DNA from: Ignavibacteriales bacterium
GTDB lineage: Bacteria > Bacteroidota > Ignavibacteria > Ignavibacteriales > Melioribacteraceae
Assembly (NCBI GenBank): GCA_021740915.1
Contig: JAIOYW010000001.1
Span: 124,001-188,000 of the forward strand
Length of the DNA: 64,000 nt
Direction of reading: 5' to 3'
The translations under genes were made by a program, and so were the position numbers. This document shows, in pieces, positions 15,248 to 56,087 of the stretch; position 1 is the first letter of the stretch; every line of letters begins with the position of its first letter. A model generated the notes under the pieces. It ran no database searches. It was not told the origin of the DNA and saw only the letters and a list, made by a program, of their open reading frames with translations.

Positions 15248-16777
15248 ATGGAGAGAGCATCAGGTCAGATATTGACAATTTTTGGCGCCTCTGGCGATCT
15301 GACAAAAAGGAAATTGCTGCCTGCTATATATGAGTTATTTAATCAGATGGCTTTACCAGAGAATTTTGCAATTCTGGGGATCGGAAGAACGGAATTAACT
15401 GACAAGGAATTCCGAGATCAGATGGAAAATGGTATTCTTGAGTATTCGGAGAATAAGTTGGAGCGAGTTGACAAATATTTTCTGGATAAACTGTTTTATC
15501 TTTCTATAAATACTTCTGATCATAATGATTATGAAAAGATAAAAGTTCGTCTCGCATCACTTGATGATAAATTTAATGCTTCAGGGAATTTTATATATTA
15601 TCTCGCAACCCCACCCAGCTTATATGGACTTATCCCGGAATATCTCGGTGCAGTGGGCTTGAATAAAAATGAGAATCGTGGAGGTTTTCAGCCGCGGTTA
15701 ATCATCGAGAAACCCTTCGGTTATGATTATGAGAGTGCGATTGAATTGAATGAGCGTCTTTTAAGGTATTTTAAGGAAGATCAGATCTACCGGATTGATC
15801 ATTACCTTGGTAAGGAAACTGTCCAAAATGTGCTCGTAACGAGATTTGCAAACGGAATATACGAACCACTCTGGAACAGGAATTATATTCATCATGTGGA
15901 AATCACTTCCGCTGAATCAATCGGTGTTGAAAGCAGAGGGGGATATTATGATTCTTCCGGTGCATTGAGGGATATGATACAAAATCATTTAATGCAGCTT
16001 GTTGGTCTTGTTGCAATGGAACCGCCATCCACTTTTGATTCAAATTCAATAAGAAATGAAGTAGTAAAAGTTTTTCTTGCTCTCAGACAACATAAGCCTG
16101 AAGAAATAAGTAAGTTTACAATACGCGGACAATATCTTTCCAGTAAAATTAAAGGTCGGATTGTTCCTGGCTATCGGGAAGAAAAGGGAGTTCACCCGGA
16201 ATCAAAAACAGAAACATATGCTGCCATGAAATTTTTCATTGACAACTGGAGGTGGGGAGGTGTCCCATTCTACATCAGGTCCGGAAAACGACTTCCAACA
16301 AGAGTTACTGAGATCGTTATTCACTTCAAAAGGACTCCTCATTACCTCTTTAAAGGGCGAACTGTTTCTGAATCATCGAATCAACTGATTATACGGATTC
16401 AGCCCGATGAGGGAATATTAATGAAACTCGGAATGAAGGTGCCTGGCGCTGGTTTTAATGTACAGAATGTAAATATGAGTTTCAGATATGCTGATCTCTC
16501 TAACGTATATTTACCAACGGCATATCAGAGATTACTCAATGATGCTATGTTGGGAGACTCAACATTATATGCAAGGGGTGATGCTGTGCTTGCAGCATGG
16601 ACTTTCGTAAAACCCATTCAGGATGCGTGGGCAAATGATCCTTCTGTTAAAGTTTATGGTTATCCTGCCGGAACATGGGGACCGGAAACCGCTGATGAAC
16701 TTTTTAACAGAAGGGGAATAACCTGGCGTTATCCATGTAAAAACTTAACTGATGACGGAATATTTTGTGAACTTTAA
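15248..16777 (+). CDS. zwf: Glucose-6-phosphate 1-dehydrogenase
   Basis: First step of the oxidative pentose phosphate pathway: glucose 6-phosphate to 6-phosphogluconolactone with NAD(P)+ reduction. The nucleotide-binding motif is FGASGDLTKRKLLPA (from about residue 12). The active-site signature is RIDHYLGKETVQN, holding the substrate-binding Lys and His, and the second lysine segment is EKPFG. Length 509 is normal. The start is an ATG with AAAGGA 8 nt upstream. It abuts pgl directly (stop TAA, then ATG) and heads the pgl/tal-pgi operon. Confidence 0.97.
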   Translation: MERASGQILTIFGASGDLTKRKLLPAIYELFNQMALPENFAILGIGRTELTDKEFRDQMENGILEYSENKLERVDKYFLDKLFYLSINTSDHNDYEKIKVRLASLDDKFNASGNFIYYLATPPSLYGLIPEYLGAVGLNKNENRGGFQPRLIIEKPFGYDYESAIELNERLLRYFKEDQIYRIDHYLGKETVQNVLVTRFANGIYEPLWNRNYIHHVEITSAESIGVESRGGYYDSSGALRDMIQNHLMQLVGLVAMEPPSTFDSNSIRNEVVKVFLALRQHKPEEISKFTIRGQYLSSKIKGRIVPGYREEKGVHPESKTETYAAMKFFIDNWRWGGVPFYIRSGKRLPTRVTEIVIHFKRTPHYLFKGRTVSESSNQLIIRIQPDEGILMKLGMKVPGAGFNVQNVNMSFRYADLSNVYLPTAYQRLLNDAMLGDSTLYARGDAVLAAWTFVKPIQDAWANDPSVKVYGYPAGTWGPETADELFNRRGITWRYPCKNLTDDGIFCEL

Positions 16778-17520: not shown

Positions 17521-20328
17521 ATGTCAAAATTAATTGAACTTTCAGGATTGGGACAATCAGTTTGGTGTGATTTTATCAGCAGGAAATTTATTAACGACGG
17601 GAGTCTTAAAAAACTTATCGATCTGGGATTAAAGGGTGTGACTTCTAATCCGACAATATTTGATAAAGCTATTTCTGGCAGCGAAGATTATGACGAGGAT
17701 ATCAGGGAACTATTAACCAATGACATTGAACTTAATGATATTTACGAAAAAATAGTCATTAAAGATATTGTGCTTGCAGCAAATCTTTTATCTGATGTTT
17801 ATGTGAGCACAGGAGGAGTTGATGGTTATGTAAGTCTTGAAGTAAACCCTTTATTAGCAACAAGGACAAAAGATACGATCAGAGAAGCAGTCAGATTGCA
17901 CAAAATCCTTAACTGCCCCAATATTATGATTAAGGTTCCTGCAACCGAAGAGGGGATTCCTGCTATTGAATTCCTAATTGGCCAGGGTATTAATGTTAAT
18001 GTGACTCTTATTTTCAGTTTGACAAACTATAAGAAAGTAGCCGAGGCATATATTCGTGGACTTGAAAAATTCAGCGCCCGGGGTGGCGATCTCTCAAAAG
18101 TCGCCTCCGTGGCTTCTTTTTTTGTGAGCAGAGTTGATAGCGCAGTAGATAAACAACTTGAAGAAAAGGGGAATTCTGATTTAAAGGGAAAAATCGCAGT
18201 CGCGAATTCCCGCATTGCTTTTAAAATGGGTCAAGAAATATTTTCCGGCCCCAGATGGGAAAAACTAACAGATAAAGGAGCGAGAGTTCAGAGATTACTC
18301 TGGGCAAGCACAGGCACAAAAAACCCGGAATATTCCAAAACCCTGTATGTCGATGAATTAATCGGGCCCGATACTGTCAATACATTGCCTCCTGAAACAA
18401 TAGAGTTTTTTCTACAATCAGGAAAAGCTGAAAGAACAATTGATAAAAATATTTTTACTGCTGAAGAACAAATAAATAAACTTTCCTCGCTTGGCATATC
18501 AATCGAGCAAATCACAGAAAAACTTCAATCTGAGGGTGTGAAATCTTTTTCACAGTCCTTCTATTCTTTAATGGATAATTTACAGAGAAAATCTGATCTC
18601 TTTAGGTTGAAATCAGGTGGATTTTTCATCACAGCAGGCAAACACAGAGAAGTATTTATGCAGGAATTGAACAGTCTTTTCGTCCAGTCTGTCGCTGAAA
18701 GGATATGGAAAAAAGATCATTCCGTTTGGTCAGACAGTCCTGTTGAGATAAGTAATCGTCTCGGCTGGCTTGACTGTTTTGAAATTACAGAGGAACAACT
18801 GCCGTCCGTTAATAAGTTTGTCGAAGAAATAAAATCCGAGGGATTTACCGATTTGCTTTTGCTTGGGATGGGGGGATCAAGTCTTGCTCCCGAGGTTTTT
18901 GGAAAAACATTTACTGGTCATGAGGCAGGACTGAAAATACACATACTGGATTCAACTGACCCTGATATGGTTAGCAGGGTGAGAGATACACTTAATCCTC
19001 TGACTACTCTTTATATGGTCTCAACAAAATCAGGTGGAACTGTAGAAACAATTTCTTTTATGAAGTATTTCTATAATTATATACATAGTAATTTTGGTGC
19101 AGACTTTGCAAAAAATCACTTTGTTGCAATAACAGATCCAGGCAGCGGGCTTGAAGACATCGCAATTAAACTTGGATTCAGGAAAATATTTTTGAACGAT
19201 CCTGAAATTGGCGGGAGATATTCAGCCCTCTCCCTGTTTGGAATTGTGCCAGCTGCATTGGCTGGTATTGATGTGGCACGATTACTCAACGAAGGCAGAA
19301 AAGCTGCAAATAATTCAATAAAAAGCCCATATAAGGTTTATTCTGAAAACAGAGCATCAGTAATTGGTGCGCTGATTGGAGCTTGTGCAAAAGAAAATTC
19401 GGATAAATTGACTTTTATTTTATCTGAATCTGTGAAGCATCTGGGGGTCTGGTTCGAACAACTTATTGCTGAAAGCACCGGTAAAAATGGGGTTGGCATC
19501 CTTCCTGTTGATGGCGAAGATTTACTCGATGTCTCGAAATATCTCGGTGATAGAGTTTTCATCAATCTTTATATGAGAAATGAGGCACATTCAAATAAAA
19601 ATCTGGAGGAATTAATCATCAAGGGGTATCCTGTAATCTCTATACCATTGGACGATATTTATCAGATTGGCGGAGAAATTTTTAGCTGGGAGTTTTCAAC
19701 GGCAATAGCGAGCTGGGTACTAAACATAAATCCTTTTGATCAGCCAAACGTAGAGTCTGCCAAAGTGATCGCCCGTAAGATGGTCAGCGAGTATATTAAT
19801 AATGGGAAAATTGTTAATAACAAATATTTGACAAACACGTTAAATTATTCTATTACAGGCAATTACAGCAATACAATAAAGTCATTTATTGAATCATTAA
19901 TTGGAAATCCCGCTGTGGGAAATAAGAAAAAGTACTTAAGTTTACAAGCATATGTTCCATACGATGAAACTTTTGAAGAATTAATTCGGAAAATAAGAGG
20001 ACACATTGGGAGAAAATATGGTATTGCGACAACTTTTGGTTATGGTCCACGATTTCTGCATTCAACCGGCCAGCTTCACAAGGGAGATTCAGGCAATGGG
20101 ATATTTTTACAAATATTAAGCGAATATGTTAAGGATACCGGAATACCTGAAACGGCTGTAAAATCAGATAGTTCAATCAGTTTTGGAGTACTCAGAAATG
20201 CGCAAAGCCTCGGCGATGCCAGTGCTTTGAAAGAAAATGAAAGAACGATCGAGACTATTTTACTTAAAGGTGACTATGTTGAATCATTCAGGCATTTTAT
20301 GAAGGATATTGGTATAAAGAACATTTAA
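17521..20328 (+). CDS. tal-pgi: Bifunctional transaldolase / glucose-6-phosphate isomerase fusion
   Basis: One 935-residue polypeptide with two enzymes. Residues 1 to about 360 are transaldolase, with GVTSNPTIF and the Schiff-base Lys138 in NIMIKVPATEEG. From about 380 to the end is a glucose-6-phosphate isomerase, with LGMGGSSLAPEVF at about 450 and HLGVWFEQLIAESTGKNG at about 640-655 (the PGI phosphate and substrate signature). Such fusions are known from several bacterial groups. Joined to zwf and pgl, it lets sugar phosphates cycle between fructose 6-phosphate, glucose 6-phosphate and the pentose pool. A GAGG lies about 4 nt before the ATG. Confidence 0.95.
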   Translation: MSKLIELSGLGQSVWCDFISRKFINDGSLKKLIDLGLKGVTSNPTIFDKAISGSEDYDEDIRELLTNDIELNDIYEKIVIKDIVLAANLLSDVYVSTGGVDGYVSLEVNPLLATRTKDTIREAVRLHKILNCPNIMIKVPATEEGIPAIEFLIGQGINVNVTLIFSLTNYKKVAEAYIRGLEKFSARGGDLSKVASVASFFVSRVDSAVDKQLEEKGNSDLKGKIAVANSRIAFKMGQEIFSGPRWEKLTDKGARVQRLLWASTGTKNPEYSKTLYVDELIGPDTVNTLPPETIEFFLQSGKAERTIDKNIFTAEEQINKLSSLGISIEQITEKLQSEGVKSFSQSFYSLMDNLQRKSDLFRLKSGGFFITAGKHREVFMQELNSLFVQSVAERIWKKDHSVWSDSPVEISNRLGWLDCFEITEEQLPSVNKFVEEIKSEGFTDLLLLGMGGSSLAPEVFGKTFTGHEAGLKIHILDSTDPDMVSRVRDTLNPLTTLYMVSTKSGGTVETISFMKYFYNYIHSNFGADFAKNHFVAITDPGSGLEDIAIKLGFRKIFLNDPEIGGRYSALSLFGIVPAALAGIDVARLLNEGRKAANNSIKSPYKVYSENRASVIGALIGACAKENSDKLTFILSESVKHLGVWFEQLIAESTGKNGVGILPVDGEDLLDVSKYLGDRVFINLYMRNEAHSNKNLEELIIKGYPVISIPLDDIYQIGGEIFSWEFSTAIASWVLNINPFDQPNVESAKVIARKMVSEYINNGKIVNNKYLTNTLNYSITGNYSNTIKSFIESLIGNPAVGNKKKYLSLQAYVPYDETFEELIRKIRGHIGRKYGIATTFGYGPRFLHSTGQLHKGDSGNGIFLQILSEYVKDTGIPETAVKSDSSISFGVLRNAQSLGDASALKENERTIETILLKGDYVESFRHFMKDIGIKNI

Positions 20329-30158: not shown

Positions 30159-31166
30159 TTGTTAAGCAACTATGCTTCAGATGAATTTCAGAAATACGAA
30201 AGAATCTACGAAAAGGAATTAACGAAAATTGAAGCCGGGTTAAATGAAGTATTTAAAGGAATGAGCCCGCACTCTCTATACGATCCCTGTTTGTATGCTG
30301 TAACAGGCGGCGGAAAGAGGATAAGACCGTTTATGGTTCTGCTTTCGGGAGCAGCCGCCGGCGGTAAATATGAACACGTTTTTAATACTGCATTATCAGT
30401 AGAACTTTTCCATAATTTCACCCTTGTTCATGACGATATTATGGATAATGCGGATAAGAGACGTGGACGAAAAACCGTACACCTAAAGTATGGTGTCAGT
30501 TCTGCTATCCTTTCGGGAGATAACCTAATAGCGGTTGCTTATAAGTATCTTATGAAAGATGTTACCTCAAATCATCAGTATATTTTTAATCTTTTCACTG
30601 ATGCAATTATCGAAGTCTGCGAAGGGCAAAGTCTTGATACTGACTTCGAACGTAAAAAAAATGTCAGTATCGATGAATATAAATTGATGATAAAGAAAAA
30701 AACCGCTATTCTTTTAGAATTGTGCTGTAAACTTGGCAGCGCTGTAGTTGGCGCGGACCAGGGAACGACAGAAGCTTTAGGTGCATATGGGCATAATATA
30801 GGAATGGCTTTCCAGATTCAGGATGATCTTCTTGATATTTTTGGCGATGAAAAACAATTTGGGAAAACAGTTGGACGTGATCTTCTTGAAGGTAAAAAAA
30901 CTTATCTTATTCTTAAGGCGATTGAAAAATCGGATGCAAAAGCAAAAAAAATGCTCAATTTGTTTATAACAAACAAAGGGATTAAGATCGATCAAATATC
31001 AGAATTTAAGGAAATGTATAAACGACTTGGTGTAATAGAGGATGCTGAGAAGGAAATAAAACAATATACAGCACTGGCATTCGAAGCATTAAATAGTATT
31101 AAAGAAGCGGAAGCAAAAAATATCCTGATATGGCTTGGCACTAAATTACTAACGAGAAACAATTAA
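30159..31166 (+). CDS. Polyprenyl diphosphate synthase (trans-isoprenyl type)
   Basis: Condenses isopentenyl diphosphate units to an all-trans allylic diphosphate. Two Asp-rich motifs bind Mg-diphosphate: LVHDDIMDNADKRRGRKTVH and FQIQDDLLDIFGDEKQFGK. Chain length (geranylgeranyl, octaprenyl or similar) is set by residues before the first motif and is not certain here. The start is TTG at 30159 with GGGAGG 4 nt before it. The stop overlaps the ATG of ptsH (TAATG). Confidence 0.9.
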   Translation: MLSNYASDEFQKYERIYEKELTKIEAGLNEVFKGMSPHSLYDPCLYAVTGGGKRIRPFMVLLSGAAAGGKYEHVFNTALSVELFHNFTLVHDDIMDNADKRRGRKTVHLKYGVSSAILSGDNLIAVAYKYLMKDVTSNHQYIFNLFTDAIIEVCEGQSLDTDFERKKNVSIDEYKLMIKKKTAILLELCCKLGSAVVGADQGTTEALGAYGHNIGMAFQIQDDLLDIFGDEKQFGKTVGRDLLEGKKTYLILKAIEKSDAKAKKMLNLFITNKGIKIDQISEFKEMYKRLGVIEDAEKEIKQYTALAFEALNSIKEAEAKNILIWLGTKLLTRNN

Positions 31167-31432
31167 TGGTTACTAAGGAAGTTGCAATTATTAATGATGC
31201 CGGACTTCATACAAGACCAGCAGCAACAATTGTGCGTTTAGCTGCTGGATTCAAGAGTAACTTTATGATCTATAAAGATGGTTTAAGCATCAATGGGAAA
31301 AGCATAATTGGAGTAATGACACTGGCAGCCGCAAAAGGGAGTTCATTGACCCTTGAGTTTGATGGGATAGATGAGAATGAAGCTATGACAACTATCATTG
31401 GCTATTTTGAAAGGGGATTTGACGAGCTTTGA
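31166..31432 (+). CDS. ptsH: Phosphocarrier protein HPr
   Basis: An 88-residue HPr with the phosphorylated His15 in GLHTRPAA and a serine at position 46 in INGKSIIGVM. Ser46 is the residue that HPr kinase/phosphorylase modifies in bacteria with that control system. It takes a phosphoryl group from enzyme I, encoded next with overlapping stop and start codons. No sugar-specific EII gene is in the window. Confidence 0.95.
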   Translation: MVTKEVAIINDAGLHTRPAATIVRLAAGFKSNFMIYKDGLSINGKSIIGVMTLAAAKGSSLTLEFDGIDENEAMTTIIGYFERGFDEL

Positions 31433-33189
31433 AAGAGACTGAGAATTTTAATATTAAATCGGGGATTGCAGCAGCCCCAGGACTTACCATTGCGCGGGCT
31501 TATATATTTTCAAAAGAAAAAGAGGTTGTTAACGATTCATTTATCGTTGACCCGGATGAGGCAATCAGAGACCTTGAAGAGGCTTTGGAGAAATCACGAA
31601 AGGAACTCGAGAAAGTTTTAGCAGTTACTATTGATATTTTGGGCAAAAATCGAGGGGAGATATTTGAAGCCCAGATAATGATCCTTGATGATCCATTTCT
31701 AATAGGGAATATAAAAAAAAGGATAGCAGAAGAGAAGAGAAACCCGGAATTCACAGTTGATACTGAGTTTTCAAAGTATCAGAAAATAATGGCCCGTTCT
31801 GAACAACCATATATGAAGGAGAGAATTCTTGATATCGAGGATATCAAAAACCGGATTATTAAAAATATTCGCAAAAAGAAATGGGTTTCGAGACTGTCTA
31901 ATGATATTATTGTGATTTCTGAATTCCTTACACCAGCGGATACAGTCCTTTTTCTAAAAAATAATGTTCAGGGGTATGTGACAAATTCCGGTGGACTCAC
32001 ATCTCATGCAGCAATACTGGCAAGATCACTGAATATCCCAGCCGTTGTTGGATTACACAATGCAACAACGATTATTAAGAATGACGATTTGATTATTTTG
32101 GATGGCTCGCACGGGCAGGTAATTATCAATCCAGACCAGAATACTCTTGAAAAATACAACAAAAAAATCACACGATTACAAGCATATGGAGAAGATTTAA
32201 AAAAATTACGCGATGAACCTGCTATTACTCTTGATGGCAGACATGTCAAACTAATGGCAAATCTCGATCTGAATGAAGAATTTCATTTCATTACTGAAAA
32301 CGGTGCTGAAGGTATTGGTTTAGTTCGAACTGAACAAATTTTCCAGGGTGACGACACATTTCCAAGCGAAGAGGTTCAGACTGCTGCATACAGAAAACTC
32401 GCTGAAATGACGTATCCGAACAGGGTCATAATTCGAGCCTTTGATGTCGGGGGTGATAAAATGCTCCCGGTTGACCTGAAGGAGCCAAATCCCTTTCTCG
32501 GCTGGCGCGGCATAAGGTTCTTACTCGATAATCCCGGGCTTTTAAAAACTCAAACGAGAGCAGTACTCCGGGCAGCGGTTTTTTCTAATATTTCTTTCAT
32601 GATCCCGATGGTTTCGTCCTTCAGGGAAATAATTGCATTTAAGTCAATAGTAAATGAATGTGAAAATGAGCTGAGGAATGAAGGCAAAGAATTCTACGAA
32701 GGCATTAAATTAGGAATTATGATAGAAGTTCCTTCTGCAGCCGTTATGGCCAAAGAATTTGCTGCTGAAGTTAATTTTGTCAGTATTGGCACGAATGATC
32801 TTATCCAGTATTTACTTGCCGTGGACAGAGGGAATGATATTATTTCTGATCAATATCAGGAATTCCATCCATCTGTTGTAAGATCATTAGCGCATATTAT
32901 CAAGGAAGCCAAATCAAACGAACAATCCTTTGTAAGCATTTGCGGGGAGATGGCAGCCGACCCTTTGGCAGTTCCATTACTGGTTGGATTAGGACTTGAT
33001 TCCCTCAGTGTTTCAGCATCAGCCATCCCCAATATTAAGAAAATAATTAGGTCGCTTAAATATTCTGAGACTATCGAACTCGCTTCAAAATGTCTTGAGT
33101 GTAAAAGAGAAAAAGAAATACGTGATGAAATGCGCAGATTTTTCATGGAAAAATTCCCCGATATTTACGAAGAATTATTTTCAACCTAA
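31429..33189 (+). CDS. ptsI: Phosphoenolpyruvate-protein phosphotransferase (PTS enzyme I)
   Basis: Moves phosphate from phosphoenolpyruvate to its own His and then to HPr. The phosphorylated residue is His193 in GGLTSHAAILARS. The PEP-binding barrel has GIGLVRTEQIF, RAFDVGGDK and IGTNDLIQYLLAVDR, and the C-terminal Cys lies in SICGEMAADP. Length 586 is normal. The TTG start overlaps the stop of ptsH. With no EII in view, the pair may serve regulation or partners elsewhere in the genome. Confidence 0.95.
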   Translation: MKETENFNIKSGIAAAPGLTIARAYIFSKEKEVVNDSFIVDPDEAIRDLEEALEKSRKELEKVLAVTIDILGKNRGEIFEAQIMILDDPFLIGNIKKRIAEEKRNPEFTVDTEFSKYQKIMARSEQPYMKERILDIEDIKNRIIKNIRKKKWVSRLSNDIIVISEFLTPADTVLFLKNNVQGYVTNSGGLTSHAAILARSLNIPAVVGLHNATTIIKNDDLIILDGSHGQVIINPDQNTLEKYNKKITRLQAYGEDLKKLRDEPAITLDGRHVKLMANLDLNEEFHFITENGAEGIGLVRTEQIFQGDDTFPSEEVQTAAYRKLAEMTYPNRVIIRAFDVGGDKMLPVDLKEPNPFLGWRGIRFLLDNPGLLKTQTRAVLRAAVFSNISFMIPMVSSFREIIAFKSIVNECENELRNEGKEFYEGIKLGIMIEVPSAAVMAKEFAAEVNFVSIGTNDLIQYLLAVDRGNDIISDQYQEFHPSVVRSLAHIIKEAKSNEQSFVSICGEMAADPLAVPLLVGLGLDSLSVSASAIPNIKKIIRSLKYSETIELASKCLECKREKEIRDEMRRFFMEKFPDIYEELFST

Positions 33190-33238
33190 TTAATATGCTA
33201 TCTGTCCTAAGAATTATCCTGGTAATCTAAAAACTTTG

Positions 33239-36070
33239 ATGAATATTTTGGGACTAAATATTACCAGGTTTCTAATTTTATTGCTTCTACTTACAGGAAA
33301 CACCTACCCTCAATTATTCTCTTTTGGCAGGAATAAAGTTCAGTATGAAAGTTTTAATTGGAAAATTATAAAGACTGAGCATTTCGATATTTATTATTAT
33401 GATGAATTTGGTGAGATGGCAGAAATCGGCGCGGCCTATGCCGAAGAAGCCTATTCCGAACTGAAAGTTAAGTTTAATCATAATGTCATTAATAGAATAC
33501 CTCTGATTTTTTATAACACACATCTGCATTTTCAACAAACTAACACTTTACCAGGATTTATTCCGGAGGGTGTTGGAGGTTTTTTTGAATTTATCAAAGG
33601 CAGAGTTGTCATACCTTTTCTGGGTTCGCTTGAAGAATTCAGACATGTGATCAGACATGAGCTCGTTCATGTGTTTATGACGAGCAAGTTAATGAATCAG
33701 GTCAGGGATCATCGCTTGATCGAAGAAAAATATCCGCCATTATGGTTTATTGAAGGGCTGGCGGAATTCTGGTCAACTTCCTGGGATTCCAAGGCAGAGA
33801 TGGTTATGCGTGATGCCGTAATAAATGGTTTATTTGTCCCTGTTCATAATATCGATAGAATTTCAGGAAGTTTTCTTATGTACAAAGAGGGCCAAAGTTT
33901 TTTAATTTTTATCAGTGAAGAATATGGGTCAACAAAAGTTTCTGAAATAATTGAGAATTTCTGGAAATTTAAGAAGTTTGAAGATGTTCTCGAATTCACT
34001 CTTGGTGAGAAAATTGCTGAAATCGATAAAAAATGGGAATACTCTTTAAGAAAAAGATATTTTCCGCTGCTGAATAAAAAGAAACCGCATGCTATAGATT
34101 CTAAAAAATTAACAATAGATGGATATAATTTCTCACCTCGAATTATTTCAAATGCAAAAGATTCATCTCTTTTCTATATTGCCAATGTGGATGGATACTC
34201 CTCCATATATAAAATTGAGAATTATTACGAAAAAATATTTGAAGACGAATCAGTTCCAAAACTATTCATACGGGGTGAAAAAACCGCAGTTTTTGAGTCA
34301 TTCCACATTTTTCAACCATCACTCGCTATAAGTCAAAAATATATTGCTTTTGTTTCAAAGAATGAGGGAAGCGACGTTTTGTATATCTGTTCGATCGAAG
34401 ATGGAAATATTCTGACTGAGATTAAGCATAAAAAAATGATCAGTATTAAATCACCTTCTTTTTCGAATGATAATAAAAAACTTGTTTTTAGTGCTATCGA
34501 TAATAAAGGTTTCAGTGATATTTTTCTTTTTTCATTTGCTGACAGCAGCATCCAAAGAATTACAGATGATTATTACGATGATAAAGACCCTGTATTTGAT
34601 CAAAACAACTCTGATATTGTTTTTTCATCCGACCGAACTGAAGGTACACATGCTGGAAAATATAATCTTTTCAGATATGATTATAGTGAAGGGACCTATG
34701 AATATATTACATACGTTGGATACGATATTACGATGCCAAAATTTAGTCCCGACTTTAAGACACTCTTCTGTCTGGCAGAAGTCAATGACATTCAAAATAT
34801 ATGGCGACTTGAAACTGACAGTTTAAGTAATAATAAAATGTGTATGTTCAAAGTAACTGATTTTATAACAACAGTACTCGATTATGATCCTATTAACAAT
34901 GAGGAAATCGTCTATTCAGGATTTGAAGAATTTTCATTCCATTTGTATTATTATAAAAAATCAGGAAGAGATTCTGCTAGAGAAAAGATAGAATTTGAAT
35001 ACTACGGCGCTTTCGGGAAATGGATACCGGAATCAATTAATCTATCTTCGGAGGCGGGTGGACTTGAATATGAAAACGAATACACAATTGATTATGCTGT
35101 CAGCCAGGTTATTACAGACCCGGTATATGGCACCAGGGGCGGAGCACTTTTTACATTAAGTGATCTCCTCGGTGATGACAGATATATGTTTTTGCTATAT
35201 AATACTGCAGAAGTTCAAAGCGAAATTCTCCAAAATTTTAATATTGCTATCACAAGGGTTAATAGTGAAAAAAGATCGAATATTGGTTACGGCATTTTTC
35301 ATTATAACGGAAGAAGGTACGATATTCGGGAATCGGATGAGTTTTTCTATGAGCGAAGTTATGGTGGTTTCTTTTCGCTGATCTATCCACTCTCAGTTTT
35401 CCGGCGCCTGGAAGCCAGTGTATCTATTGCCAATACTGATAAAGAAATGCCTGAAAATCTGTTTATTTCACAGAAATCATTACTACTTTCAAATTCAATA
35501 TCACTAGTTTTTGACAATTCACTCTGGATGCCGACAGGACCTCTTGACGGGACACGTTATAGGGTGTTAATGGGTTATACAACTGATCTGAGGTATAGTA
35601 ATATTAATTATTATTCAATCATCGCAGACTTCCGGCATTATCTGAGAACTTCTTTCAGATCCACGTTGGCACTGAGGACATCAATATATATAAATGACGG
35701 AAAACAACCGCGACGATATTTTGCCGGAGGAAGCTGGGATTTAAGGGGCTGGCCGCGTTGGTCTGTCCGGGGAGAAAAACTTTGGCTTTCTTCTGCTGAA
35801 TTCAGATTTCCAATAATCGATCAAATATATATTAAATTCCCATTTTTTGGTCTAGGAGTCGCAGGTATAAGGGGAGCTTTATTTTTTGATGCAGGAGGAG
35901 CCTGGGATTCTGAATATGATGAAACACTGGGGAGTCTCGGAGGCGGAATTCGTTTGAATCTATTTAACATAATAGCTCTCAGGTATGATGTCGGGAAAAA
36001 AATTGAAAATGATTTCAAAAATTTTCAACCACGACTTTTTTATCAGTTCTTCTTCGGATGGGATTTCTGA
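33239..36070 (+). CDS. Exported hybrid: gluzincin-type peptidase domain, PD40-like propeller and Omp85-like C-terminal barrel
   Basis: A 943-residue protein in three parts. A signal peptide (ITRFLILLLLLTGNTYPQ) is followed by a peptidase-like domain with H140-E-L-V-H144 and WFIEGLAEFWS, whose Glu172 fits the third zinc ligand. The middle (about 270-570) contains repeated strands such as KLVFSAIDNKGFSDIFLFS and DIVFSSDRTEG, typical of PD40/TolB-type beta-propellers. The last 350 residues include RYFAGGSWDLRGWPRW, GALFFDAGGAW and GGGIRLNLF, the pattern of Omp85/surface-antigen barrels, and the protein ends in aromatic F-F-G-W-D-F. I chose the ATG at 33239 over a TTG just before. It probably sits in the outer membrane. 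The following gene starts 1 nt after its stop. Confidence 0.78.
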   Translation: MNILGLNITRFLILLLLLTGNTYPQLFSFGRNKVQYESFNWKIIKTEHFDIYYYDEFGEMAEIGAAYAEEAYSELKVKFNHNVINRIPLIFYNTHLHFQQTNTLPGFIPEGVGGFFEFIKGRVVIPFLGSLEEFRHVIRHELVHVFMTSKLMNQVRDHRLIEEKYPPLWFIEGLAEFWSTSWDSKAEMVMRDAVINGLFVPVHNIDRISGSFLMYKEGQSFLIFISEEYGSTKVSEIIENFWKFKKFEDVLEFTLGEKIAEIDKKWEYSLRKRYFPLLNKKKPHAIDSKKLTIDGYNFSPRIISNAKDSSLFYIANVDGYSSIYKIENYYEKIFEDESVPKLFIRGEKTAVFESFHIFQPSLAISQKYIAFVSKNEGSDVLYICSIEDGNILTEIKHKKMISIKSPSFSNDNKKLVFSAIDNKGFSDIFLFSFADSSIQRITDDYYDDKDPVFDQNNSDIVFSSDRTEGTHAGKYNLFRYDYSEGTYEYITYVGYDITMPKFSPDFKTLFCLAEVNDIQNIWRLETDSLSNNKMCMFKVTDFITTVLDYDPINNEEIVYSGFEEFSFHLYYYKKSGRDSAREKIEFEYYGAFGKWIPESINLSSEAGGLEYENEYTIDYAVSQVITDPVYGTRGGALFTLSDLLGDDRYMFLLYNTAEVQSEILQNFNIAITRVNSEKRSNIGYGIFHYNGRRYDIRESDEFFYERSYGGFFSLIYPLSVFRRLEASVSIANTDKEMPENLFISQKSLLLSNSISLVFDNSLWMPTGPLDGTRYRVLMGYTTDLRYSNINYYSIIADFRHYLRTSFRSTLALRTSIYINDGKQPRRYFAGGSWDLRGWPRWSVRGEKLWLSSAEFRFPIIDQIYIKFPFFGLGVAGIRGALFFDAGGAWDSEYDETLGSLGGGIRLNLFNIIALRYDVGKKIENDFKNFQPRLFYQFFFGWDF

Positions 36071-36071
36071 G

Positions 36072-37199
36072 ATGAAGCAAATTACTATTATCCTGCTAAT
36101 TATTCTCATTACATCCTGCACGAGACAAATCATAATTAATGACATTAATACTAATTCTGAAGGATTATTTCAATTCGGGAAAACCCCGGAACGGGATTTC
36201 TATTTTGATACTGATCTGCCTGATTCACTGATTTTCGAAAAAAAATATTCAATAAGCGGTAGTTTTAATAACTCATCTATGGTTTTTTATGATGAATATG
36301 CGTTTGCAGGCGATCTGTCAGGCAATATCTATGCAATAAACCTTGACACGAAAAAAATCACAGGTACTCAGAATAATAAAGGTGGTGTTTTTGTTTGTCC
36401 GATAATAAACAAGTTGAGATTATTCTATGTAACCGATAACCTCGATTCCCGTAACTCTACATTCTATATGTACGATTTTTATTTGAATATTTATCACGCA
36501 AAAATCGAGATACCCGGTTCATGCAGAAATGAGATGGTTAAAACTAATGATGCAATCTTTCTTCTCTCATCTGACGGCACTCTTTATAAAATCTCACTTA
36601 TGGGCGAAATAATCTGGATAAGAAAAACCAATGCAACCACCTACTGTAATCCGGCTGCCGATGAGAGTAATATTTATTGGGGCAATTCATCCGGGCAAGT
36701 AATCAAAGTTTCATTGAATGACGGTTCAATCCTCGGGCAGACCAAACAATATACGGCCATAGAGGGTGGAATAACAATAAGGGATGGATTAATTTATGTG
36801 GGTGATAATGCCGGCAATTTGTCTTGTTTTAACACAGACCTGCAAAAGATTTGGGAATATCAGACTTCTGCAAAAATCATCTCAAACCCTGCAGTATCCG
36901 ATAGTATAATTATTTTCGGAAACCTGGAAGGCAATATCTATTGCCTTGATAGAAATTTCGGGAAGCTAATTTGGATCTTAAAGACAGGCGGGATTATTAA
37001 TACTACTCCAATTATTTTTAAAAACTTTACTGTCGTTGCCGATCTCAATAAAAAAATCCATTTTATCAAGAATGAGGATGGTAAATTAGAAAAACAGATC
37101 GAGCTTGAAGGGAGATGTAAGTTATCGCCATCATTTTTTAAAGGATCGCTTTTTATAGGATATGATAGAGGAAATCTATTGGAGTTGAAATATGAATAG
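36072..37199 (+). CDS. PQQ-like beta-propeller lipoprotein
   Basis: A lipoprotein: the signal MKQITIILLIILITSC ends in a lipobox cysteine at residue 16. The rest is a repeat protein with blades like FAGDLSGNIYAINLDTKK, YVGDNAGNLSCFNTDLQ and IFGNLEGNIYCLDRNFG, the BamB/PQQ-repeat pattern. BamB is a lipoprotein of the outer-membrane assembly machinery, so an envelope scaffold role is plausible but unproven. The frame is open upstream into the previous gene; the lipoprotein signal fixes the ATG at 36072. It sits 1 nt after the Omp85-like hybrid, which hints at a joint role. Confidence 0.78.
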   Translation: MKQITIILLIILITSCTRQIIINDINTNSEGLFQFGKTPERDFYFDTDLPDSLIFEKKYSISGSFNNSSMVFYDEYAFAGDLSGNIYAINLDTKKITGTQNNKGGVFVCPIINKLRLFYVTDNLDSRNSTFYMYDFYLNIYHAKIEIPGSCRNEMVKTNDAIFLLSSDGTLYKISLMGEIIWIRKTNATTYCNPAADESNIYWGNSSGQVIKVSLNDGSILGQTKQYTAIEGGITIRDGLIYVGDNAGNLSCFNTDLQKIWEYQTSAKIISNPAVSDSIIIFGNLEGNIYCLDRNFGKLIWILKTGGIINTTPIIFKNFTVVADLNKKIHFIKNEDGKLEKQIELEGRCKLSPSFFKGSLFIGYDRGNLLELKYE

Positions 37200-37767
37200 A
37201 TGTCTATTAATTCATATTTTTCTATTACTTACATTTCCCTGGTTTGCGCAGGAAAAGCAGAGACTGACCATTGTAACGGAGAATCCTGAAAATGAAATAG
37301 TTCTAAATGATTCCATCTTTGTGATAGGAACTTTTTCAGGATTTTTCAGTGGGTTAAGTGTGAATGTTAAGGTTTTACCAAAAGGAAAACTCTGGGGGAG
37401 AGGTATCTATGAGGAGAATGTGTTTTTGAATGGAAAAGCAGTAAATAAGTATTATTCTGAAAATAAATTCATAAGTAAAGATATTAACAGTTTTATTTAT
37501 GCCCCGGTAACATTAGAAATACAGAATGAAAAAGAGAGTTTTATCAATACAGAATTATTCCGATATCTTATCGGATCTGCGATTTTGATTGGAACCGGGG
37601 CCGTATATTACAAATTTCAGGCGGATGCGCAATATGAGACCTACAAAAAAACGGGTAATTCTTTGACTCATCAAAGAACCGAAAAATTTGATACAATAAG
37701 CGGAATCTTTTCGGGAGCCCTGCAAATTAATTTTGCACTACTGATCTATTTCTTCCTCACTGAATGA
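37192..37767 (+). CDS. Small exported or membrane protein of unknown function
   Basis: I do not recognise a named family. The 191 residues begin with a signal sequence (CLLIHIFLLLTFPWFAQ). A beta-rich segment (RLTIVTENPENEIVLNDSIF) recalls a PEGA-type domain, which decorates surface proteins. The C-terminus has two hydrophobic stretches (YLIGSAILIGTGAVYY and LQINFALLIYFFL) around a soluble loop with DAQYETYKKTGN. It overlaps the propeller lipoprotein gene by 8 nt and converges on polA. It probably works in the envelope with its two upstream neighbours. Confidence 0.6.
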   Translation: MNRCLLIHIFLLLTFPWFAQEKQRLTIVTENPENEIVLNDSIFVIGTFSGFFSGLSVNVKVLPKGKLWGRGIYEENVFLNGKAVNKYYSENKFISKDINSFIYAPVTLEIQNEKESFINTELFRYLIGSAILIGTGAVYYKFQADAQYETYKKTGNSLTHQRTEKFDTISGIFSGALQINFALLIYFFLTE

Positions 37768-53468: not shown

Positions 53469-56087
53469 ATGCATTCTCAAAAATATTTCAGGATTAGATT
53501 AATAATCCTGTCTTTTTTTCTTTCCTGTAACCTGTTCGCACAAATCGAATTTAAAGTTGACTATCAAGAACTAGCTATTATACCCGAAATTACTCCAAGC
53601 GGCATCTATGGCTTGATAAACTGGGGAATTGATAATAATAAACTCTTTATTTTTGATAGAAATAACCGAACAGTCATATATGATTTGCAGAACAAGATAT
53701 CCGTTTCCTCAAATTCCGGGGAAGAATATACGCTTGATGAGAGTTTCGGAATTCACAATTTTTCAAAGTCAGATATACTCTTCAAAAATCCTGATGGCTA
53801 CTATTCCAATCAGAACGATGAATCCCTCAGAATTATCAGAGGGCAGGGTGATGTTAACCTTCAATTCGATGGTCGTGAAATAACAATTAATTATAACTCC
53901 GATTTTGTTGAGCCGATTGGAATAGATTCAGATTCCAGGATTTTCCTTTATTCGGAAAGTATTGTGCGCCATTTTCCACTTGAAGTTATCGGAAATATTT
54001 TGATCCTCAATGAATATGGGGAAATACTTAAAGAATTCCAGGTGCCATTCTATAATTATCTTACGATATCAAAACGTTTCGAAATTGACAGGAACGGGAT
54101 TATTTATCATTTGATAAGCACACCAAATTATTTGGCCTTAAATAAATTTGATCCATGGGCAAATAATGTATTGCAGAAAGAGTATGAAATAAAAAACATT
54201 GCGCCTGTTCACTATTCTGAATATGTGAGCACTGAAGAATATTCTCCGGAATATAAACCTGGTGATGCTGCACTTATTTTTTCAAGCAGAAAAACTGCAT
54301 TATCCCTTGCTGAGGATTATGTTACATATAAATATTTATGTGTTGCTGGAAACCTCGCCCCAAATAACGTAACAGCTCCAGACGGAGATATAGTGAGAAC
54401 TCCTGCATGGCTCATAACCGGATGGAATGGTAAAGTGGCTTATAAATGGGGTGGATTCAACACAATTTCAAGCTATTATTCAGGATTGATAAATAATCGA
54501 TACGCTGGCGATATCAACACCACCGGAGTCTCTTCTTATGCCGTAGGAGTTGATTGTTCCGGATTTGTCAGCAGATGCTGGCAGTTAAGTTATCATTCAT
54601 CAACTAGTATGATGCCTGATATCACGGTACAATATGCATCCTGGAATGATCTTAAACCTGGTGATGCAATCCATAAAATTGGTCATGTGCGATTATTTAT
54701 AAACAGAGAACCGAATGGATCCTTTCGTATTGCCGAGGCATCAGCGCGAGATTGGGCTGTTTCTTACTGGAGTTACACTCCTTCTGACCTTCTTTCCTAC
54801 ACGCCGAGATATTATTCTGGGATGGAAAATTTATATTCAGATGTTGACGTCAAATTGATAAGAGCTCGTTATACTGATGATGGTGATAGTGTAAATCTGA
54901 AATGGTTTTCTGAAATGACAGGAATAAAAGGATTTCGGATTTACTCATCTAATGACGGAAAGAGTTTTAATGCAATTTTTGATGAGAATTCGGTTAATAC
55001 TCCCGAATACTCAATTCCTTCCGGAATCGGAAAGTACTTCAAAATTACTGCAGTTTCAGAGTCGGACGGAGCCGAAAGTTTTTTCTCAAATACTCTTGGT
55101 ATTACCCGGGGGACATCAGAAAGGAAGTGGTTGATAGTTGATGGTTTTGACAGAAATCTTTCCAGCGCAAGTTGGCATGGAAAATCACACAATTTTACAA
55201 TACCATATTTTAAAGTTTTATCCACTGGAAATGAGACCGTGGAGTCAATCCATCACTCCGATTTAACAAATACAGCTTCTGATTATACCGGAATTTACTG
55301 GATTGCAGGTGATGAGAGCACTACGGATACTACATTAAATAATTATGAAAAAGAATTTTTAAGAAATTATCTGCGTAACGGAGGCAATTTATTTATTTCC
55401 GGTAGTGAAATTGGATGGGATCTCTATCAAATGGGAGATAATGACGATAAAGATTTTTACCGGGATTACCTGAAATCAAAATTTGTCTCAGACGATTCAA
55501 ATTCAAAATTGGCCAAGGGTATTATTGGAACACCGTTCGCAGCAGTCAATCTATATTTTGGCCAGATGTATGATGAGGATTTTCCAGATGCAATTGACAC
55601 AGTAAATGGAAGTATTCCGATACTTACTTATTCTACGAATAAAACAGCTGCAATAGCTTATCGGGGTTTATTTCCTCAGGGAAATCTGGACGGGTCTCTC
55701 ATTTACCTTGGATTCCCTCCTGAAACATCAGCAAATGATTCTGCTTTTGCTGAACTGGTTCAAACATCATACAATTACTTTTTGAATATCTCGAAAATTC
55801 CGGAAAGATTACCGACAACTCCGAAAGACTTCGTTCTTTATAATAACTACCCAAATCCTTTTAATCCTGAGACTAACCTTTCGTTTTATCTTAATTCTGC
55901 CCAGACGATAACAATTGATTTATTAACCATGCTTGGTGAGAAAATTAAAACTATTTATGCAGGGACTGTAAAAGAAGGATTCCACAGTTTCAGACTAAGT
56001 AGTTTTGGTCTGAGTTCGGGCATTTATTTCGTAAATTACACTTTAAATAATAAATTTTATTCACAGAAAATAATCCTAACTAAATGA
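53469..56087 (+). CDS. Secreted NlpC/P60-like hydrolase with type IX secretion sorting domain
   Basis: An 872-residue exported protein. Signal RLIILSFFLSCNLFAQ is followed by a beta-propeller-like or unassigned region (to about 270), then an NlpC/P60-like cysteine hydrolase segment with Cys363 in GVDCSGFVSRCW and the His in IHKIGHVRLF. A fibronectin-like part follows (about 460-540), then a region that may be Rossmann-like (WLIVDGFDRN and NGGNLFISGSEIGWDLY). The last 85 residues are a sorting domain with NNYPNPFNPETNLSF, LLTMLGEKI and LSSGIYFVNY. It is probably sent out by the type IX system and may cut peptide bonds in cell-wall material. Confidence 0.82.
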   Translation: MHSQKYFRIRLIILSFFLSCNLFAQIEFKVDYQELAIIPEITPSGIYGLINWGIDNNKLFIFDRNNRTVIYDLQNKISVSSNSGEEYTLDESFGIHNFSKSDILFKNPDGYYSNQNDESLRIIRGQGDVNLQFDGREITINYNSDFVEPIGIDSDSRIFLYSESIVRHFPLEVIGNILILNEYGEILKEFQVPFYNYLTISKRFEIDRNGIIYHLISTPNYLALNKFDPWANNVLQKEYEIKNIAPVHYSEYVSTEEYSPEYKPGDAALIFSSRKTALSLAEDYVTYKYLCVAGNLAPNNVTAPDGDIVRTPAWLITGWNGKVAYKWGGFNTISSYYSGLINNRYAGDINTTGVSSYAVGVDCSGFVSRCWQLSYHSSTSMMPDITVQYASWNDLKPGDAIHKIGHVRLFINREPNGSFRIAEASARDWAVSYWSYTPSDLLSYTPRYYSGMENLYSDVDVKLIRARYTDDGDSVNLKWFSEMTGIKGFRIYSSNDGKSFNAIFDENSVNTPEYSIPSGIGKYFKITAVSESDGAESFFSNTLGITRGTSERKWLIVDGFDRNLSSASWHGKSHNFTIPYFKVLSTGNETVESIHHSDLTNTASDYTGIYWIAGDESTTDTTLNNYEKEFLRNYLRNGGNLFISGSEIGWDLYQMGDNDDKDFYRDYLKSKFVSDDSNSKLAKGIIGTPFAAVNLYFGQMYDEDFPDAIDTVNGSIPILTYSTNKTAAIAYRGLFPQGNLDGSLIYLGFPPETSANDSAFAELVQTSYNYFLNISKIPERLPTTPKDFVLYNNYPNPFNPETNLSFYLNSAQTITIDLLTMLGEKIKTIYAGTVKEGFHSFRLSSFGLSSGIYFVNYTLNNKFYSQKIILTK

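Follow-up and report, generated by a model that had tools for sequence, protein, structure and literature searches.

What does a bacterium do with a single protein that appears to join a zinc peptidase, a beta-propeller and an outer-membrane barrel? The question is raised by a gene, here called gene A, in a 64,000-nucleotide stretch (the window, in whose coordinates all unprefixed positions are given) that covers positions 124,001 to 188,000 of contig JAIOYW010000001.1 from an Ignavibacteriales bacterium (Bacteroidota, Melioribacteraceae; GenBank assembly GCA_021740915.1). We propose, with a probability of roughly 0.5, that gene A and its partners serve as an accessory module for assembly and quality control of the outer membrane, working beside the canonical β-barrel assembly machinery (BAM), with the peptidase acting on the clients. 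Omp85 proteins are usually understood through their POTRA domains, which receive clients in the periplasm. Gene A belongs to a widespread, conserved family in which the POTRA place is taken by a propeller and by a zinc protease that looks active, and which has a BamB-like or TamB-like partner; the proposal, if true, would mean another way of coupling proteolysis to outer-membrane assembly.

The open frame of gene A runs from 33236 to 36070 on the forward strand, with a TTG at 33236 and an ATG immediately after it at 33239; the product has 944 codons from the TTG, where our residue numbering starts, and 943 from the ATG. The first-pass annotation, made from the sequence without database searches, had taken the ATG as the start, and the TTG one codon earlier is also possible. 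It had read the product as an active gluzincin (at a HELVH motif), a TolB/PD40 propeller and an Omp85-type barrel, and the domain search part by part and the survey of relatives both bear out the three-part anatomy, which we regard as nearly certain. Among 48 aligned homologues, 29-59% identical to the window copy, Pfam at E<=0.01 found Peptidase_MA_2 in 48, PD40 in 46 and Omp85 in 27. This alignment includes 5 of the 40 A neighbourhoods that we collected; L041, L047 and L035, the last of them a fragment, are not in it. A frameshift or a misassembled fusion as the origin of gene A was ruled out by the full-length homologues in many genomes.

For the N-terminal part, the Peptidase_MA_2 model matched residues 136-271 of the whole protein (E=1.9e-6) with 28.3 bits and the fragment with 30.2 bits, both below its cut-off of 32.4. 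The residues H141, E142, H145 and E173 are invariant in 48/48 homologues; HELVH likely supplies two zinc ligands and the general base, and E173 is likely the third ligand. When the protein sequence was shuffled, HExxH appeared in 1.8% of the shuffles, and HExxH followed 20-70 residues later by EGxAE in 0.005%. A chance motif was rejected on both grounds, the conservation being the stronger argument. M1 aminopeptidases are gluzincins, and an AlphaFold2 model of the gluzincin part alone aligned with an M1 aminopeptidase catalytic domain (Z 10.8, rmsd 2.4 Å, 97 residues) over model residues 16-147, which are protein residues 40-171 and include HELVH. An HExxH motif with a downstream Glu in what is modeled as a gluzincin fold thus assigns the domain to the gluzincins, and we predict that it is an active peptidase.

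The propeller was recognised by the NCBIfam TolB model at 7.6e-20, a score below that model's whole-protein cut-off, and by PD40, which scored 20.5 bits in the whole protein against a cut-off of 20.9 and passed it as a fragment with 34.0 bits. Solved TolB structures were matched at 2.1e-7 with the single sequence and at 6.6e-27 with the family profile.

At the C-terminus, Omp85 (PF01103, cut-off 24 bits) matched residues 703-929 of the whole protein at 1.7e-8 and 34.8 bits. With the C-terminal 346 residues alone the score rose to 37.3 bits (3.1e-9), and the fragment match extends over residues 680-941 and model positions 35-322 of 325. The family profile matched BamA structures at 1.5e-4. The LRGW of gene A is the likely counterpart of the VRGF/Y motif in L6 of Omp85 proteins, and the last residue is Phe in 48/48 homologues, so that the family carries both the RG motif and the C-terminal aromatic residue by which Omp85 membership is judged. 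These profiles and motifs are the ground on which we call the domain Omp85. No POTRA was detected in whole gene A at E<=1 or in fragments of gene A and of its paralogue B (described below) at E<=10, nor does POTRA occur in the 20 Pfam families listed for the 48 homologues. Fragments were scanned because whole-protein scans can miss a domain: that of paralogue B missed its Omp85 match, which the fragment scan recovered. POTRA was detected in further Omp85 proteins that the source genome encodes.

Several results weigh against this anatomy. A structure prediction of the whole chain, which the first-pass annotation had proposed as a check, yielded no barrel: the AlphaFold2 model had a pLDDT of 33.7 and a pTM of 0.29, with a pLDDT of about 19-25 in the barrel part. 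The model of the gluzincin part that aligned with the M1 fold had a pLDDT of 46.1, and both models were built from two-row alignments with a single relative, L006. The M1-aligned range stops just short of E173, and Foldseek found no match to the gluzincin model at E<=0.001, M1-family enzymes making up most of its top 50 rows; the two-row gluzincin profile found no relative among solved structures. The propeller was recognised across part of its length, and Omp85 reached E<=0.01 in only those 27 of the 48 homologues. When the gene A family was compared by hhalign with the lineage's own BamA proteins (an alignment of 18 of 25 BamA loci), the match was weak, with a probability of 0.6% and an E of 0.1; this weak alignment places LRGW of gene A in register with LRGY of BamA.

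We then turn to the partners. The gene that follows gene A, whose ATG begins one base past the gene A stop, encodes a propeller lipoprotein with a lipobox cysteine, Cys16, that is invariant in 26/26 aligned homologues (the window copy and 25 others with readable starts, out of 39 profile matches, of which one, a second match in L068, is unrelated). The window copy matched PQQ_2 with 61.6 bits (cut-off 27.6), and the family profile matched solved BamB at 2.7e-41. TIGR03300 (BamB) was the widest-matching NCBIfam model, with 26/26 of those scanned, and the best for the window copy. We call the protein BamB-like because the window copy scored 83 bits, short of the curated TIGR03300 cut-off of 285.2.

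This gene travels with gene A. In an automatic draw of 38 genomes of the order, which are not 38 independent cases because the genomes are related, gene A is present in 30 (the source genome included), and in 30/30 of these the BamB-like gene lies downstream on the same strand with a gap of 3-110 bp. The 8 genomes without gene A yielded no clear BamB-like orthologue: at E<=1e-5 three of them gave no match, and the other five gave partial ones, none stronger than 8.7e-9. Across the phylum, a profile survey of 42 A loci, made on stop-to-stop open frames so that gaps are approximate, found the third gene in 33 and, in 38, a BamB-like gene that adjoins gene A and shares its strand, in support of the conserved three-gene order that the first-pass annotation had suspected. 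In L051, L053-L057, L059-L062 and others, the lipoprotein frame can start (MGFL or VGFL) inside gene A, 12 bases ahead of its end, and this overlap suggests translational coupling. C-terminal hydrophobic segments are conserved in the product of the third gene, and PEGA was found in 13 of 32 homologues (of 33, with L080 excluded) and was not detected in the window copy.

Paralogue B, which has the same architecture as gene A, is present in 37 of the 38 genomes of the order. Among 296 genomes of the phylum, 177 match gene A at E<=1e-25, a number that includes A, B and some fainter relatives, and A-grade matches (E<=1e-120) occur in 71 by a hand count among the matches listed. In the 20 B neighbourhoods that we collected, which like the 40 of gene A were chosen by hand from match lists and not at random, B is about 1,045-1,163 residues long in most (one frame has 1,267), and HExxH and WxxEGxA are kept in 20/20. 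Omp85 scored 46.7 bits in the C-terminal part of B, and Peptidase_MA_2 41-44.5 bits. In a tree, A and B are separated by one branch with several families on either side, several of them with both, and the duplication therefore looks old. In this midpoint-rooted tree the protein of L006 falls next to B on a long branch (1.63), so its placement is unsure; its genome has one full-length match. Gene A as plasmid cargo was rejected, one plasmid record (Salinibacter) having matched and the phage collection not having been searched; among IMG/VR contigs 72 stretches fit a pattern and 0 were confirmed as relatives.

At the B loci, neither the BamB-like gene nor the third gene was found (0/20). Instead, the source genome has a gene for a 1493-aa AsmA-superfamily (TamB-like) protein, then an RNase R gene, then B. 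In 35 of 37 genomes of the order the TamB-like gene precedes B by 2.1-2.4 kb and has the same orientation; in G021 and G031 the two are on separate contigs. In 23/23 further genomes of the phylum, namely those with both B and the TamB-like protein among the matches listed, it lies 2.2-2.5 kb upstream on the same strand; six more genomes have a strong TamB-like match and no B among the matches listed. Of the collected B loci, 14 contain the TamB-like gene and 15 RNase R. The TamB-like protein is 1483-1621 aa long in those 14 loci and has a hydrophobic N-terminus, as read from the translation; DUF748 and AsmA both matched it below cut-off. It thus corresponds to the description of TamB as an AsmA-superfamily protein of about 1500 aa with an N-terminal membrane anchor. 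A query from a distant family matched in 89 of 198 genomes and found none in the source family at E<=1e-15, and the pairwise match, the length, the position and an iterated profile argue for kinship between the two versions. G062 has a TamB-like match and no A or B match. A 218-aa lipoprotein-like gene (L091:6162-6818), without a family match above cut-off, follows B in 6 of the 20 loci.

At E<=0.01, nine Omp85 genes were found in the source genome. One of them is a canonical BamA with POTRA domains; of 29 genomes, 27 have BamA as a single gene of its own, and the two without a match are G030 and G011 (G011 also gave no matches to A, to B or to the TamB-like protein at the limits used). Gene A as a BamA replacement was rejected for this reason, and A and B would therefore be additions to BAM. 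Two other genes, L122:888-3602 and L124:1256-3811, have the patatin-POTRA-Omp85 layout of PlpD, and three further Omp85 proteins have POTRA matches, one of them below cut-off. The canonical BamA lies about 15 kb from paralogue B on the same contig (C5), and a further 875-aa Omp85 protein (L126:657-3281) has no POTRA match and an N-terminal part without a family assignment.

Some observations on the partners also weigh on the other side. The BamB-like neighbour is missing at 4 of the 42 A loci (L066, L067, L069 and L006). One genome without gene A, G035, has an unlinked 387-aa propeller lipoprotein-like frame that the BamB-like profile scored at 114.8 bits, as against 160.8 to 438 bits for the A-linked genes. 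No A, third gene, ptsI or idsA was found in the 5.9 kb around it, and we did not count it as an orthologue, though it may be one. Genes that are not envelope genes also stay near gene A, idsA-like in 28 and ptsI-like in 29 of the 42 loci. On the side of paralogue B, PF04357 (the TamB domain) was not found in the source genome at E<=0.01, and ATportTamB, the best NCBIfam model of its TamB-like protein (3.3e-12), gave 45 bits where the cut-off is 825, which is why we say only TamB-like. The TamB-like proteins of the source and the distant family matched pairwise at 1e-8 with 19% identity over 535 columns, and the POTRA-bearing Omp85 proteins of the source genome could be the partner of the TamB-like protein.

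How might such a module work? We suppose gene A to be a POTRA-less Omp85-superfamily protein whose barrel would sit in the outer membrane, with the gluzincin and the TolB-type propeller most likely in the periplasm, at the usual POTRA place. This placement of the N-terminal domains parallels that of the enzyme domain of PlpD, which was shown to be periplasmic (PMC11116518). The BamB-like lipoprotein would likely dock on the periplasmic part of A, and the third gene would add a small membrane protein, with a PEGA domain in some genomes. The propellers would hold outer-membrane clients, the gluzincin would trim or degrade those that stall (a task that BepA has at BAM in E. coli), and the barrel, through its gate, would insert or release them. 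Together, A and its partners would thus be an accessory assembly and quality-control module beside the canonical BAM; the topology, the peptidase activity, the physical complex, the class of client and the insertase activity of A are our suppositions in this scheme. The first-pass annotation had suggested that gene A and the next two genes could be a self-contained device for outer-membrane processing or assembly, which we consider a reasonable supposition, though the device would supplement BAM and not replace it. Paralogue B would plausibly be the Omp85 partner of the TamB-like protein. A tentative and somewhat doubtful extension is that the phylum has two extra machines, each coupled to a protease: A with the BamB-like protein would correspond to BAM, and B with the TamB-like protein to the translocation and assembly module (TAM), the peptidase in each editing or clearing clients that wait at the gate.

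The Omp85 barrel might instead lack an insertase role and be only the anchor of a peptidase that works in the periplasm on secreted or cell-wall proteins. The failure to detect POTRA and the strict conservation of the catalytic residues fit this idea, as does the suggestion, in the part of the PlpD work that we could consult, that the Omp85 scaffold has been reused for novel functions (PMC11116518). However, the RG motif and the C-terminal Phe typical of Omp85 barrels are retained, and B is linked to a TamB-like gene, TamB being the partner of TamA and TamL, which are Omp85 assembly factors. On balance we think a mere anchor unlikely.

The barrel might also deliver its own N-terminal part, in a type-V-like manner, taking the gluzincin and the propeller to the cell surface to serve as a surface protease with no assembly role. 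The propellers of TolB and BamB are established as periplasmic in E. coli, and the usual partners, BamB-like for A and TamB-like for B, are of envelope-biogenesis types; both facts speak against delivery to the surface. An N-terminal enzyme in front of a C-terminal Omp85 barrel is the layout that was long read in this way for PlpD, as the main text of an Omp85 survey recounts (PMC4104836), but a later study located the PlpD enzyme domain exclusively in the periplasm (PMC11116518). A propeller lipoprotein of the Bacteroides BAM is described as facing outwards (PMC12578637), which tempers the propeller argument, and we rate self-delivery as quite improbable. That nothing but slow change of gene order in the lineage keeps the BamB-like and 191-aa genes next to gene A is very improbable, since, although idsA-like and ptsI-like genes likewise remain near gene A, the genes abut or overlap, gene A and an adjacent BamB-like gene occur together in 30 of 38 genomes with neither gene A nor a clear orthologue in the other 8, and 38 of 42 loci across the phylum keep the link, with A homologues down to about 40% identity.

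The features are collected in the table.

Predicted features of gene A, its neighbours and paralogue B (positions in the window unless a locus is named; residues of gene A counted from the TTG)
Feature	Position	Strand	Basis
Gene A, a chain of gluzincin, TolB-type propeller and Omp85 barrel	33239..36070	+	Open reading frame, Pfam, NCBIfam, profile
Export-signal-like hydrophobic N-terminal stretch, residues 2-26	33239..33313	+	By eye from the translation
Gluzincin (Peptidase MA superfamily) domain, residues ~42-275	33359..34060	+	Pfam 136-271; structural alignment
HELVH, residues 141-145	33656..33670	+	H141, E142, H145 invariant 48/48
EGLAE, residues 173-177	33752..33766	+	E173 and G174 invariant 48/48
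TolB-type beta-propeller, recognised part, residues 349-531	34280..34828	+	NCBIfam TolB, PD40, solved TolB
C-terminal Omp85 barrel domain, residues ~614-944	35075..36067	+	Omp85 profile, BamA structures
LRGW, residues 836-839	35741..35752	+	R 48/48, G 47/48
BamB-like PQQ-type propeller lipoprotein, 375 aa, lipobox Cys16	36072..37199	+	Profiles, lipobox
191-aa envelope-type protein (third gene)	37192..37767	+	Kept in 33/42 loci
Paralogue B downstream of TamB-like gene and RNase R	L091:7451-17249 (contig C5, source genome)		Arrangement common to several families

Other genes of the window were noted in passing. Upstream of gene A, 30159-33189 holds genes for a polyprenyl synthetase (idsA-like) and a PEP-utilising protein (ptsI-like), both of which are kept there in many relatives. 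A single frame at 17521-20328 has transaldolase and phosphoglucose-isomerase domains, with glucose-6-phosphate dehydrogenase upstream at 15248-16777. At 53469-56087 an 872-aa protein carries a secretion-system C-terminal sorting domain (Por_Secre_tail), a type of domain known from type-IX secretion; together with the Salinibacter match, it points to Bacteroidota in a broad sense.

A search of titles and abstract openings, with supplements and subscription papers beyond its reach, found no description of a gluzincin-propeller-Omp85 chain. No such protein appears in the accessible text of two 2025 papers on the Bacteroidota BAM (PMC12611786, PMC12578637) or of a 2026 review (PMC13067283), and one of these papers calls it unclear whether BamB exists in any Bacteroidota (PMC12578637). 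The TAM evolution paper (PMC4494059) and the TamL paper (PMC12045153) have no propeller partner in the text that could be consulted. The closest description is the WD40-Omp85 subfamily, with a TolB-like propeller, an Omp85 barrel and no POTRA, which the main text likens to a fusion of BamA with BamB (Heinz and Lithgow 2014, PMC4104836). Gene A, with a TolB-like propeller N-terminal to an Omp85 barrel and without detected POTRA, falls within that definition as the main text gives it, and differs from the subfamily as described there, the supplementary tables lying outside the comparison, in its gluzincin, its BamB-like partner and its TamB-linked paralogue; no word starting with 'peptidase' occurs in that main text (PMC4104836). 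A propeller-Omp85 protein without POTRA is thus already in print, and it is the peptidase domain and the BamB-like and TamB-like partners for which we found no description in the literature within reach.

Besides the WD40-Omp85 subfamily, four further known systems may be compared with gene A. Another subfamily of the Heinz and Lithgow survey, 'Metallo', is reportedly defined by PF00149, which is a different fold. PlpD, a patatin-Omp85 protein whose enzyme domain stays in the periplasm by the account in the available text (PMC11116518), resembles gene A in having an enzyme domain fused N-terminal to an Omp85 barrel, and differs in that the domain is lipase-like and POTRA is present. With the BAM of E. 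coli, gene A and its neighbour share an Omp85 barrel and a BamB-type propeller lipoprotein, here encoded side by side; unlike BamA, gene A has no detected POTRA and carries a peptidase and a second propeller in the chain, the canonical BamA being separate. Paralogue B is like TAM (TamA or TamL with TamB) in lying near a TamB-like gene, and unlike TamA and TamL in that POTRA was not detected and a gluzincin and a propeller take the POTRA place. BepA is a separate protein of family M48 without a barrel, and its peptidase family differs from that of gene A. It is described, in the text at hand, as a periplasmic zinc metallopeptidase that works at BAM in the maturation and degradation of outer-membrane proteins and acts on stalled LptD (PMC8423444). 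Gene A would be like BepA in being a zinc peptidase tied to outer-membrane protein maturation, a tie that in the case of gene A is our proposal.

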